Source: an uncultured Acidobacteriota bacterium
Lineage (GTDB): Bacteria; Acidobacteriota; Terriglobia; Bryobacterales; Bryobacteraceae
Assembly (NCBI GenBank): GCA_900696665.1
Contig: CAADGY010000231.1
Location: 1-64,000 of the forward strand
DNA length: 64,000 bases
Reading direction: 5' to 3'
A model generated the notes under the pieces. That model made no database searches. It saw only the letters and a program-made list of their open reading frames with translations, and had not been told where the DNA came from. Position 1 is the stretch's first letter. The number at the start of each line of letters is the position of its first letter. A program made the position numbers and the translations under genes. Below, in pieces: positions 54,838 to 57,982 of the stretch.

Positions 54838-55431
54838 TCACCGCTCGACGAAAAGATCGATCGACGTAATCGGAGCCGAGCGGACCTGCTGTTCGAGCTT
54901 GGTATACGCGAGCAGCCCGGCGCCTTGGCGCAGGCGGGACAATCCCGCCGGGCCGAGTTGAGCGCGATAAACATCGGCCCTTTCGCTATAGGAATATGCA
55001 ACGTAGGCGATCTGTTCGGAAGCCAGCACATCGAGCAACTGTTCCCAAAAAGAATGCCGGTGCAGCAACCGGCGCCTGGTGGCGGCCGAACGCGGAAGGT
55101 CAATGCGGGTACCAGTTCCGCGGAGCACGGCGCGTGCGCAGCGCTGCGGATCGAACGTACGCCCCGGTTCCGCATCCGGCAGGCGCGCCAGGGCGGATTC
55201 AATATCCTCCCGTGCGGGCGCCAATCCGGTCCACCGAAGGCGGGACCCACCGCTGACGTGCGACCCACGGGAAAGGATTTCGAAGACACGTTCCACGTCC
55301 TTGCCCGAGACCCCGAGAATCATCTCCAGCAATTCGCCTATTGGCATATCGCGGGTGACAACCGGGGTAATAGAAATCGACTCCGCGGCTTCGGAGCTGA
55401 TTTTGACGCGAATGGTATCTGGCAGCGGCAC
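54838..55431 (-). CDS. Protein of unknown function upstream of the mutase operon
   Basis: A 197-residue soluble, Arg/Leu-rich protein with no transmembrane segment. Starts at GTG 55431. It begins with a short beta-hairpin-like region (TIRVKISSEAAESISITPVV) and has a helical centre (PIGELLEMILGVSGKDVER), but I do not recognise a family. It is the first gene of the operon that ends with the small membrane protein and the mutase, 33 bases away from the former. Its 5' end lies about 60 bases from the IS110 left end. Confidence 0.6.
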   Translation of the reverse strand: MPLPDTIRVKISSEAAESISITPVVTRDMPIGELLEMILGVSGKDVERVFEILSRGSHVSGGSRLRWTGLAPAREDIESALARLPDAEPGRTFDPQRCARAVLRGTGTRIDLPRSAATRRRLLHRHSFWEQLLDVLASEQIAYVAYSYSERADVYRAQLGPAGLSRLRQGAGLLAYTKLEQQVRSAPITSIDLFVER

Positions 55432-55491
55432 CCTCTGACAAATTTAGCGCGTCCGGCCACCCTGTTGAAGCATAGAATCGACGGAAAGGAG

Positions 55492-55712
55492 ATGAGATGA
55501 ATGTCTCATGACCCTACGGCCGGCGGTAAGCTCCTGGAGGCGGCTTCCGGAGTAGACAGGCTGTATCGGCTTGTTGGAGCTCTGACCCCGTAAAGGAGAT
55601 TGGTCAGACCTGTGGATCGAAGGTCATCGTGAGGCGCGCGAGCGACCTCGAATAGGAGTATGGAGACCGCCGCAAAGTTAGTCTACTCGACCTGGAAGAA
55701 CGAACGACCAGG
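55492..55712 (+). ncRNA. Candidate bridge RNA (left-end non-coding RNA) of the IS110 element
   Basis: A run of hairpins, all in the plus-strand sense and ending just before the transposase start: ATGAGA/TCTCAT (55492-55497, 55504-55509); AGCTCC/GGAGCT (55529-55534, 55576-55581) enclosing about 41 bases; TCTGACC/GGTCAGA (55581-55587, 55602-55608); AGGTC/GACCT (55621-55625, 55644-55648); CCTGG/CCAGG (55691-55695, 55708-55712). In characterised IS110 elements, the non-coding end encodes a bridge RNA with a target-binding and a donor-binding loop. The location and hairpin series fit; loop sequences have not been matched to insertion sites. Confidence 0.55.
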
Positions 55713-55720
55713 AGAGAGGA

Positions 55721-56741
55721 ATGGAAAAACGATATATCGGCATCGATCTGCACCGCAACCGGTTCACCTGTTGCCTGCGGCTGGAGAACGCGTACGTACG
55801 TGACCGAGTGGGAGTTGGAGGATTTGGGGAAGTTCGTGAAGAAGCTGCGGCCCAGCGACGAAATCGCGGTGGAGATCACAGGCAACACGAGGTTGTTTTA
55901 CGACGCGGTGGTTCCGCACGTGGCGCGTGTGGTTGTGGTGAACAGGACCCAATTCAAGGTGATCCGGCAATCGGTGAAGAAGACCAAGCCGCACGGCGCG
56001 CGGGCGCTGGCGCTGTACTTGTCGAAGAACATGCTGCCGGAGGTGCGCATGAAGGATAAAGAGCACGGGCAGTTGGCATCGCTGACGCAGACACGCGACA
56101 CGCTGGTGAAACTGCGCAGGGCGCTGAAGAACAAGGTCAACAATATCCTGAGCGCGCGCGGGCTGAACCTGCCCAAGGAAGCGCTGGGGAGCGAAAAGGC
56201 GCTCAACGAAGTACTGGAGCTGCCCTTCGACGAGATCGTGCGGATCGAGTTGCGGGTGATCGTGGAGCAGATCCGCAGCCTGAACAAGAGCATTGCAGAG
56301 TTGGAGAAGACCATTGGCGAGGAAGGCTCCAAGTTGGAGGGACACAAGGGCCTGAGGAGCATCAAGGGGATCGGCAAGATCACGGGGGCGATTCTGTTGA
56401 GCGTGATCGGGGACGTGAACGACTTCGCCGGCGAGGGCCGCCTGGCGAGCTACTTCGGAATCGTGCCTCGGGTGTCGAACTCGAACGAAACCGAACACAG
56501 CGGCCGGATTCACAAACGCGGAACCAAACTGGGCCGGACGGCGCTGGTGCAATCGGCGCTGATTGCGGCCAACTACAGTCCGTACCTGAAGCGGTTCTAT
56601 GAGCAAGTCAAAGCGCGTTGCGGGGCCGGCAAGGCGATCATTGCACTGGCGCGGAAGTTCCTGGGCATCATCTATCGAACTTTGAAGAATAAGTGGGTCT
56701 TCCAGGATTTCCTGAATTTCGTTTTGGCGGAGGCTTCATGA
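55721..56741 (+). pseudogene. IS110-family transposase, frameshifted and missing catalytic residues
   Basis: Recognisable in two frames. 55721-55790 encodes the start (MEKRYIGIDLHRNRFTCCLR), with the first DEDD aspartate in GIDLH. From about 55791 a +1 frame continues (RTYVTEWELEDLGKFVKKLR) to the end at 56741, including the Glu motif VEIT, the region where TDxxDA is expected, and the C-terminal Tnp_20 domain with IKGIGKITGAILLSVIGDVN and HSGRIHKRGTKLG (conserved Ser). The expected D-x-x-D of the DEDD site is replaced by TKPHGA, so two catalytic aspartates are lost. GTG at 55800 could initiate the second frame, but without the first domain. The element is not expected to encode an active enzyme. 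Confidence 0.85.
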
Positions 56742-56773
56742 AGAAGCTCTGGGACCCACCAACGGAAATCCAG

Positions 56774-56940
56774 GCTTCTGGTTTCCGCTCCGCCGCCCGC
56801 CGGCTTGGGTGGATAGCAGAACGGTGCCCGGAGGCAAGGGTTCGCTACGCCGCGGCAAACACCGCCGCGCCCTTGCCGCCTGCGTGCCGTTCTGCAAGAG
56901 CGAGCGATTGCGACGGGCGGCTCCGACGGAAACCAGAAGC
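56774..56940. repeat. Large nested inverted repeat downstream of the IS110 transposase
   Basis: Outer arms 56774-56787 and 56927-56940 are a perfect 14-bp inverted repeat (GCTTCTGGTTTCCG on the left). Further in, GCAGAACGG...AAGGG near 56817-56841 pairs with CCCTTG...CCGTTCTGC near 56871-56895 almost completely, and CGCGGC/GCCGCG lies at the tip. The whole is a 167-base hairpin-like structure. It may be the right end of the IS element, or a separate repeat (MITE/REP-like) or structured RNA. Confidence 0.65.
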
Positions 56941-57011
56941 AGAGCAATTTCTTCGTCTTGCGAAAGACGAAAACCAGGTTGTAGTTGACAAAACATCATA
57001 GGAGTTTGCCG

Positions 57012-57119
57012 ATGGATATCGAAAACGCCAACCACCCCGTAGAGCGCCTGGTGCACAAGTACGCGCTTGTAGCCGGCATCCACGTCCGCGGGCGGATGCT
57101 CCCGAGGTATAAGGAATGA
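57012..57119 (+). CDS. Short open reading frame coupled to the alpha/beta hydrolase gene
   Basis: A 35-residue frame (MDIENANHPVERLVHKYALV...). GGAG lies 8 bases before the ATG, and the stop shares ATGA with the hydrolase gene at 57116, which suggests translation. However, the last third lies in a dispersed repeat (57071-57099), so it may be a chance frame. No similarity recognised. Confidence 0.35.
   Translation: MDIENANHPVERLVHKYALVAGIHVRGRMLPRYKE
57071..57099. repeat. Dispersed repeat family B, copy 1
   Basis: A 29-base partly palindromic segment (AGCCGGCATCC ... GCGGATGC) that matches 57999-58028 at about 27 of 30 positions, allowing one gap. The two copies flank the alpha/beta hydrolase gene in direct orientation. 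Confidence 0.5.
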
Positions 57120-57982
57120 CTCCCGTTGCGGCACTGGCCTGGTTGCTTCTGCAAACCACACAGCAGAACTCCGCGCAAGCTCCCAAGCCGGCGCCGCAAA
57201 ATCCTTCCCCGATGGTGGAGCATACGCGCTCTCACCCGCGGCTTCAGCGGGAAACACCGCCCGGCGAGCGGATACCGCTCGGAACGGGAACGCTCTATGT
57301 GCCGCCTGCGGCAGGCCGGCGATCCGGCGTGCCCCTCCTGATTTTTTTCCATGGCGGCAAGTGGCTTCCAGAGGTTGCGGCGCAGCGGACCCGCCAGGCA
57401 GCTATCGTTATTCAGCTTGGGGTCGGCTCCGGAACCTACGCCAGGGAATTCGAAGATCGGGAACGCTTTCCGGAACTGTTGGCGGAAGCGGAACAGAAAT
57501 CGGGTCTGCGCTTCGGTGCGATCACGCTGGGCGGCTGGAGCGCGGGTTGCGCCGCCGTTCGCGAGATTTTGCGGGGGGAGCGTGCCTATGAGCGTGTTTC
57601 GAATGTGCTCTGTATCGACGGCATTCATACGGGATACGTCGATGGAAAACCGGGACCGCTCGAATCCAACATTGAAACCGGCAACCTCACGACATGGCTG
57701 AAGGCCGGAAGAGACGCCATCGCCGGGCACAAGCGAGTAGTTGTGACACACTCCGAGATTTTTCCAGGCACGTTTGCCAGCACGACGGAAACGGCGGACT
57801 ACCTTGTGCGCGAGCTGGGAATCAAACGGCGGGCGGTGCTGCGCTGGGGCCCTATGGGAACGCAGCAACTGAGTGAAGCCCGCCAGGGAAAACTGCTGAT
57901 TGTGGGCTACGCGGGCAATTCGGCGCCGGACCACGTAGATCAGTTACACTCGTTGCCCGAGTACCTGCGATGGCTTGATTGA
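57116..57982 (+). CDS. Exported alpha/beta hydrolase
   Basis: A 288-residue alpha/beta-hydrolase-fold protein; the hydrophobic N-terminus (MTPVAALAWLLLQTTQQ) is a probable signal peptide. LIFFHGGKW is the oxyanion strand, GGWSAGCAAVREIL (about residue 139) the nucleophile elbow with Ser, and SAPDHVDQLHSLPEYL near the C-terminus gives a candidate catalytic His. No esterase subfamily assigned. Its ATG overlaps the short upstream frame by four bases. It is flanked by two copies of repeat family B and is convergent with the sugar isomerase gene. Confidence 0.8.
   Translation: MTPVAALAWLLLQTTQQNSAQAPKPAPQNPSPMVEHTRSHPRLQRETPPGERIPLGTGTLYVPPAAGRRSGVPLLIFFHGGKWLPEVAAQRTRQAAIVIQLGVGSGTYAREFEDRERFPELLAEAEQKSGLRFGAITLGGWSAGCAAVREILRGERAYERVSNVLCIDGIHTGYVDGKPGPLESNIETGNLTTWLKAGRDAIAGHKRVVVTHSEIFPGTFASTTETADYLVRELGIKRRAVLRWGPMGTQQLSEARQGKLLIVGYAGNSAPDHVDQLHSLPEYLRWLD

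Follow-up and report, generated by a model that had tools for sequence, protein, structure and literature searches.

Does the left end of an IS110-family insertion sequence in an uncultured Bryobacteraceae bacterium encode a bridge RNA, and if so, at what kind of site would that RNA be aimed? The question is raised by positions 55492–55712 of the window, by which we mean the whole 64,000-nucleotide (nt) stretch of contig CAADGY010000231.1 that was analyzed. For this region an initial annotation, made from the letters alone, had proposed a bridge RNA at the left end of a dead IS110 copy. Comparison with related elements makes it very probable that 55487–57004 is a dead IS110-family copy with a bridge RNA in its left end, and that this RNA belongs to a family targeted to Shine-Dalgarno and start-codon sites.

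The boundaries of the element were obtained by comparing 55400–57100 with relatives in other genomes, which have differing flanks; the left breakpoint fell at 55484–55487 and the right breakpoint at 57004. The left boundary (55487, AGGAG) is upstream of the hairpins, approximately 5 nt outside the start of the region first annotated. The transposase scored above the cut-offs for PF01548 and PF02371 (Pfam) and NF033542 (NCBIfam), corresponding to the two IS110 domains. Its frame is broken near 55790 by a net loss compared with relatives, and 55800–56741 runs on in another frame; in addition, the catalytic motif KTDPNDA (invariant KTDxxDA) reads KTKPHGA, and thus two catalytic Asp residues are gone from the DEDD set (D9, E52, D90, and D93), which is invariant among relatives. 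With a frameshifted transposase that lacks half of its four DEDD residues, the window copy is, by its sequence, inactive, in agreement with the annotation.

55487–57004, + strand: whole IS110-family element, approximately 1518 base pairs (bp), with AGGAG at each end, from homology breakpoints against relatives with different flanks
55480–55491, + strand: left junction GACGGAAAGGAG, the captured Shine-Dalgarno sequence of the target, core included, from sequence and homology breakpoints
55721–56741, + strand: transposase pseudogene, from PF01548, PF02371, NF033542, open reading frames, and comparison with intact relatives
56742–57004, + strand: right non-coding end, with the terminal motif TTGACAAAACATCATAGGAG at 56985–57004
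57005–57014, + strand: right half of the target, spacer TTTGCCG followed by the ATG (57012) of the downstream frame, whose Shine-Dalgarno sequence now comes from the right end of the element

A covariance model, R1, was built from 15 relatives with the window copy left out. Using cmsearch, R1 matched the window copy at 55549–55689 (108.5 bits, E about 3e-25), and a search of the window's own genome gave this copy an E value of 1.9e-23. The model also detected relatives that are more remote, on a plasmid from an alphaproteobacterium (L100), on two viral contigs (L117 and L118), and in G271, a genome of the same phylum from outside the class of the window organism; no match was obtained in the IS621 and ISEc11 loci. 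The RNAalifold consensus of the homologous left ends contained 40 pairs, nine of which were compensated, with 96% of cells paired, and its covariation score of 0.222 (0.128 in shuffles) was reached by none of 500 shuffles; slid controls likewise fell far below it. When the remote relatives were added, 17 of 41 pairs were compensated, again with no shuffle out of 500 as good, and the score was 0.274 compared with 0.08 or less in slid controls. Conserved structure is therefore present in this region of the homologues, and the RNA lies upstream of the transposase gene, in the left end, in the window and in all the relatives examined. As proposed, the region encodes an IS110-family bridge RNA, which would be transcribed and bound by the transposase. 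Its parts are as follows.

55529–55549, + strand: 5′ stem-loop of the bridge RNA, 55534–55538 paired with 55545–55549, from the RNAalifold consensus with compensated pairs
55549–55689, + strand: bridge-RNA core (closing helix, target loop, and donor loop), from cmsearch with R1
55550–55555 and 55683–55688, + strand: closing helix, GAGTAG/CTACTC, enclosing both loops
55556–55613, + strand: target-binding loop, from the alignment and pair mapping
About 55621–55658, + strand: donor loop

Five of the nine pairs of the closing helix have changed on both sides across relatives, and the helix has changed wholesale in L100 and L118. The order first suggested, with the target loop ahead of the donor loop, is retained, but the assignment is not: 55529–55549, formerly placed in the target loop, is the 5′ stem-loop, and the second hairpin (55581–55608), formerly the donor loop, cuts across the target loop. 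The two stems originally named can be drawn (55529–55534 with 55576–55581, and 55581–55587 with 55602–55608), but they are chance or alternative pairings, because neither covaries across 17 homologues. The window RNA alone (55497–55689) folds no more stably than its dinucleotide shuffles (z −0.87, with 33 of 200 shuffles as good).

Copies whose transposase was validated sit at a Shine-Dalgarno sequence, and an ATG or GTG lies 5 to 16 nt, mostly 5 to 8 nt, downstream of their right end CATCATAGGAG; in most validated cases this codon opens a long reading frame. As a background, the window has 97 AGGAG sites, of which only 9 precede an ATG by 4 to 9 nt. For L100 an empty site was found: three related plasmids that lack the element have CTCGAAGGAGACAACCGATG at the start of parB, which equals the two flanks joined over one AGGAG, in the layout CGAAGGAG-ACAACCG-ATG of parB. 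A stretch of the left-junction type was thus demonstrably present at this site before insertion. In G271, one element occupies four Shine-Dalgarno sites, each (T/A)AAGGAG and 5 to 8 nt before ATG. One element in G522 has three insertions (three left ends and three right ends); a whole-family search of the G522 relatives was empty, and this count therefore comes from contig ends only. Taken together, the start-codon context, the empty plasmids, and the G271 and G522 insertions indicate that the element is targeted to a Shine-Dalgarno sequence together with the start codon that it serves, that it is co-oriented with the gene with no duplication beyond the shared core, and that its right end gives a Shine-Dalgarno sequence back to the gene.

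The guides of the window copy are located as follows.

55564–55574, + strand: 5′ target guide UAUCGGCUUGU, complementary to the spacer and start codon GCCGATG (57008–57014) by six Watson-Crick pairs and one U·G
55592–55598, + strand: 3′ target guide AAAGGAG, equal to the Shine-Dalgarno sequence and the same as the left junction
55621–55628, + strand: 5′ donor guide AGGUCAUC, in which UCAUC pairs with the left end of the element (GATGA after GGA)
55652–55658, + strand: 3′ donor guide AUAGGAG, with the same sequence as the right end CATCATAGGAG

The letters of guides and flanks were taken by hand from the sequences, which come mostly from metagenome bins with some copies at contig ends, and were then tested by script; kinship among the elements makes the permutation p values approximate. 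On its 3′ side the target loop has the sequence GUNNAGGAG, of the form NNAGGAG, and the dinucleotides found before AGGAG in the guides are AA, TA, GA, CA, AG, and TC. These two variable bases equal those of the left flank in 40 of 42 cases, compared with 23.4 by shuffling (p < 1e-5; 21 non-redundant elements), and 10 of the 12 3′ guides other than AA match the left flank exactly. The 5′ guide resembles the reverse complement of the spacer and start codon; in the window, UAUCGGC stands opposite GCCGATG. This guide usually opens with CAU, with CAC in both of the elements that sit before GTG (2/2), and in some elements (L019 and L040) it matches at least eight bases. Pairing of the 5′ guide with the spacer and start codon is likely and is moderately supported by these comparisons.

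An alternative that retains some plausibility, although we consider it clearly the less likely, is that the RNA guides the element to AAGGAG only, the start codons resulting from selection against insertions inside genes and the 5′ guide playing a minor role. Such a division would agree with the modest match and variable register of the 5′ guide, but it does not account for the CAC-type guides that accompany GTG starts or for the long matches in L019 and L040, and AGGAG by itself precedes an ATG infrequently in the window, as the background count shows. We therefore prefer a target comprising both the Shine-Dalgarno sequence and the start codon.

Two further features of the target guides were observed. 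L088 (in G773) has the 3′ guide GACACGGAG and the left flank ACCACAAAG, in which CAC and the AG core are kept but GG is not, together with the donor 3′ guide AAUGGGAG; this element is possibly a naturally reprogrammed relative. Three deleted derivatives, L086 (G632), L070 (G011), and L099 (G540), lack the whole interval from the target-guide AAGGA(G) in the RNA gene to the right end, and the guide sequence now adjoins a spacer and ATG in L086 and L070 and right-end sequence in L099. In these three cases the DNA that encodes the guide may have served as a pseudo-site for the recombinase.

Both ends of the element are matched by guides in the donor loop. The 5′ donor guide co-varies with the left end over 11 distinct pairs (p 0.014–0.022), for example UCAUC for GATGA and CCAGC for GCTGG. 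Together with the flank matches of the target loop, this result upholds the expectation that the loop sequences predict insertion specificity. In the predicted circle junction, TTGACA or TAGACA of the right end and xATGAA of the left end would form a promoter-like pair with a spacing of 17 to 18 nt, a geometry that parallels that of IS621; in the window copy, TTGACAAAACATCATAGGAG would supply the −35 box of this junction promoter.

We propose the following mechanism. The family RNA would begin its fold with a 5′ stem-loop, after which the closing helix would enclose first the target loop and then the donor loop. The 3′ target guide, NNAGGAG, would pair with the bottom strand of the Shine-Dalgarno sequence, and the donor loop would read the joined ends of the element itself, with AUAGGAG for the right end and UCAUC, CCACC, or CCAGC for the left end. 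The transposase would exchange strands at the AG/CT core within AGGAG, so that the element would enter in the orientation of the target gene, no target sequence being duplicated, and its right end would give the gene a replacement Shine-Dalgarno sequence. What the analysis established directly are the ends of the element, the structure of the RNA, its matches to target and donor, the empty site, and the start-codon context; the RNA–protein complex, circle intermediate, and catalysis would be those of IS621, by homology.

Several points weigh against this proposal. No bridge-RNA family was found by Rfam at gathering or relaxed thresholds, which returned solely tRNA elsewhere and one chance match. 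The permutation test of the 5′ guide gave p about 0.1 in the core-fixed register and 0.001–0.003 if the register moves by two bases. The group-2 donor guides have one constant mismatch, and the junction promoter, with 8 to 9 of 12 matches, is weak on its own. Finally, we infer transcription, binding, and recombination from comparative sequence alone.

The window's genome contains five further copies or remnants of the element, one of which, C184, has an open frame and encodes an uninterrupted relative with the catalytic motif. Most consensus pairs and both 3′ guides are still intact in the window copy, and it might be supposed that this copy still makes a functional RNA acting in trans with the C184 transposase. 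We regard this as improbable, because 7 nt (TCACAGG) have been deleted from the 5′ strand of the target loop compared with relatives, an inner-stem pair has been replaced by an A·C mismatch (55578/55587), and the left end (ATGGTATG) and donor guide of C184 are different from those of the window copy. The same losses leave the earlier suggestion that the RNA may outlive the inactive transposase without support. It is slightly less credible again that the structured leader does nothing but regulate transposase translation, as a riboregulator or attenuator, and that the AAGGAG motifs are ordinary ribosome-binding-like sequence. The RNA is located directly upstream of the transposase gene and contains purine-rich motifs, and ISPpu9 is reported to be regulated by small RNAs and the structure of its 5′-untranslated region (UTR); but the guide bases vary by element and follow an external target, which a leader would have no reason to do, and the donor loop matches both ends. 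Least credible is the view that the left-junction NNAGGAG belongs to the element and that its match to the RNA is internal co-inheritance: AAAGGAG is, in most copies, as constant as an element end, but CGAAGGAG is already at the site in the three uninterrupted plasmids, contradicting this view at the L100 site, and in G271 the bases that precede AGGAG are not the same at all four sites of the one element.

A bridge RNA directed to translation starts can be compared with several known systems. The family resembles IS621 (PMC11208160 and PMC11208158) in having a left-end RNA with a 5′ stem-loop and then target and donor loops with two guides each, a G-U linker after the inner stem, a 7-nt (3 + 4) space for the 3′ guide as in the structural paper, and a CT core (AG on the other strand) without target duplication. 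It differs from IS621 in that the closing helix encloses both loops and in that the target loop has its left-flank match on the 3′ side, whereas in IS621 this match is on the 5′ side, an order that was checked in L102 (guide ATCGGGCCT, flank ATCAGGCCT). The transposases are approximately 24% identical to those of IS621 and ISEc11 and form their own clade in an unrooted tree. A left-flank match on the 3′ side is the guide order reported for the IS1111 seekRNAs, including that of ISEc11 (PMC11187229), and a transposase of about 340 amino acids is a further likeness to this type; by contrast, the RNA here is upstream of the transposase gene, not downstream, and the transposase belongs to a separate clade. 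A few exceptions with upstream RNA have been reported for the IS1111 group (PMC11187229). Perfect subterminal inverted repeats of 11 to 13 bp of the IS1111 type (with 7 and 3 bp extensions) were not seen by inspection, without a dedicated alignment, and a short imperfect TATGA(A)TGTTT-like repeat occurs in some copies. The left-end RNA of the IS110 group is present (55549–55689, upstream of the transposase gene), and the guide order of that group, in which the 5′ guide equals the left target top strand and the 3′ guide pairs with the right top strand, is reversed. Because one defining feature of each sub-group was tested and found absent, we refrain from assigning the family to either the IS110 or the IS1111 sub-group. 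On balance, it is somewhat favored that the family is a separate IS110-family branch, combining a left-end bridge RNA with the IS1111 guide-strand order (the ends being inverted relative to the RNA and transposase) and using this combination for sense insertion at the Shine-Dalgarno sequence in the 5′ UTR, where a host promoter may read through the RNA and transposase and the host gene would keep its ribosome-binding site. The family also shows that an RNA in the left end can be combined with the guide-strand order attributed to IS1111, a point of relevance to the origin of the two groups.

The L100 element (WP_072595607.1, Tardibacter plasmid pHSL4) is similar to the window copy in its transposase (50% identical), RNA fold (64 bits), end CATCATAGGAG, and insertion at the Shine-Dalgarno sequence of parB, but its right non-coding end is almost absent, and it has a different outer stem, another left end, and CCAGC as its donor guide. 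Targeting of translation starts is already known from IS900 of Mycobacterium avium subsp. paratuberculosis, which inserts at translation-initiation signals with the target CATGNNNNNNTCTCCTT (PMC8141618). This target reads as start codon, spacer, and Shine-Dalgarno sequence on the other strand. If CATGNNNNNNTCTCCTT lies on the transposase strand, the IS900 transposase is presumably opposite to the target gene, whereas here the two are co-oriented. Insertion of IS900 at translation initiation is reportedly, by its title, also the subject of Doran et al. 1997. No guide–target co-variation analysis of IS900 was found in the literature on IS900 examined. The present family suggests a molecular basis for targeting of the IS900 type. 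It would be a natural bridge-RNA family aimed at a signal that is universal in bacterial genes, with reprogramming by nature visible in its guides, and is relevant to the design of recombinases that insert upstream of open reading frames.

The same type of element is found in a Kiritimatiellota bin (L022), on the Sphingomonadaceae plasmid of L100, and on the viral contigs of L117 and L118, and this occurrence well outside Acidobacteriota suggests wide horizontal spread; the L017 element comes from a Bryobacteraceae bin (G026), which belongs to the family of the window's genome. A scan of viral contigs with the window protein gave no match, and one with an alignment gave two remote relatives. 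The viral pattern matches L046–L048 were rejected as element copies, being without the left-end and guide sequences of the element, and the pattern matches L030, L031, and L033, which have the same terminal motif and no established transposase relation, were left uncounted. On three other viral contigs (L049, L051, and L052), the right-end motif CATCATAGGAG directly precedes the ATG of genes.

The right non-coding end of the window copy contains one additional feature.

56774–56940, + strand: long imperfect palindrome, from comparison of element copies

The palindrome shows compensated changes (GGCAAGGG/CCCTTGCC compared with GTCAAGGG/CCCTTGAC in the right ends of L014–L019 and L021). It occurs in group-1 elements and L021 and is missing from the 48 to 49 nt right ends of L041 and L042; a genome-wide repeat was ruled out, as in the window's genome the palindrome is confined to element copies. 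The window insertion went into a frame (57012–57119) of just 35 codons, which extends over the start ATG of the gene that follows (57116–57982) and may represent a leader or what is left of a gene. At the left end (55487–55511, and in the same place in relatives), ATGAATG occurs 5 to 6 nt past the captured Shine-Dalgarno sequence and would open a very short frame (MNVS* in the window), which is possibly a leader peptide or possibly merely a −10 box.
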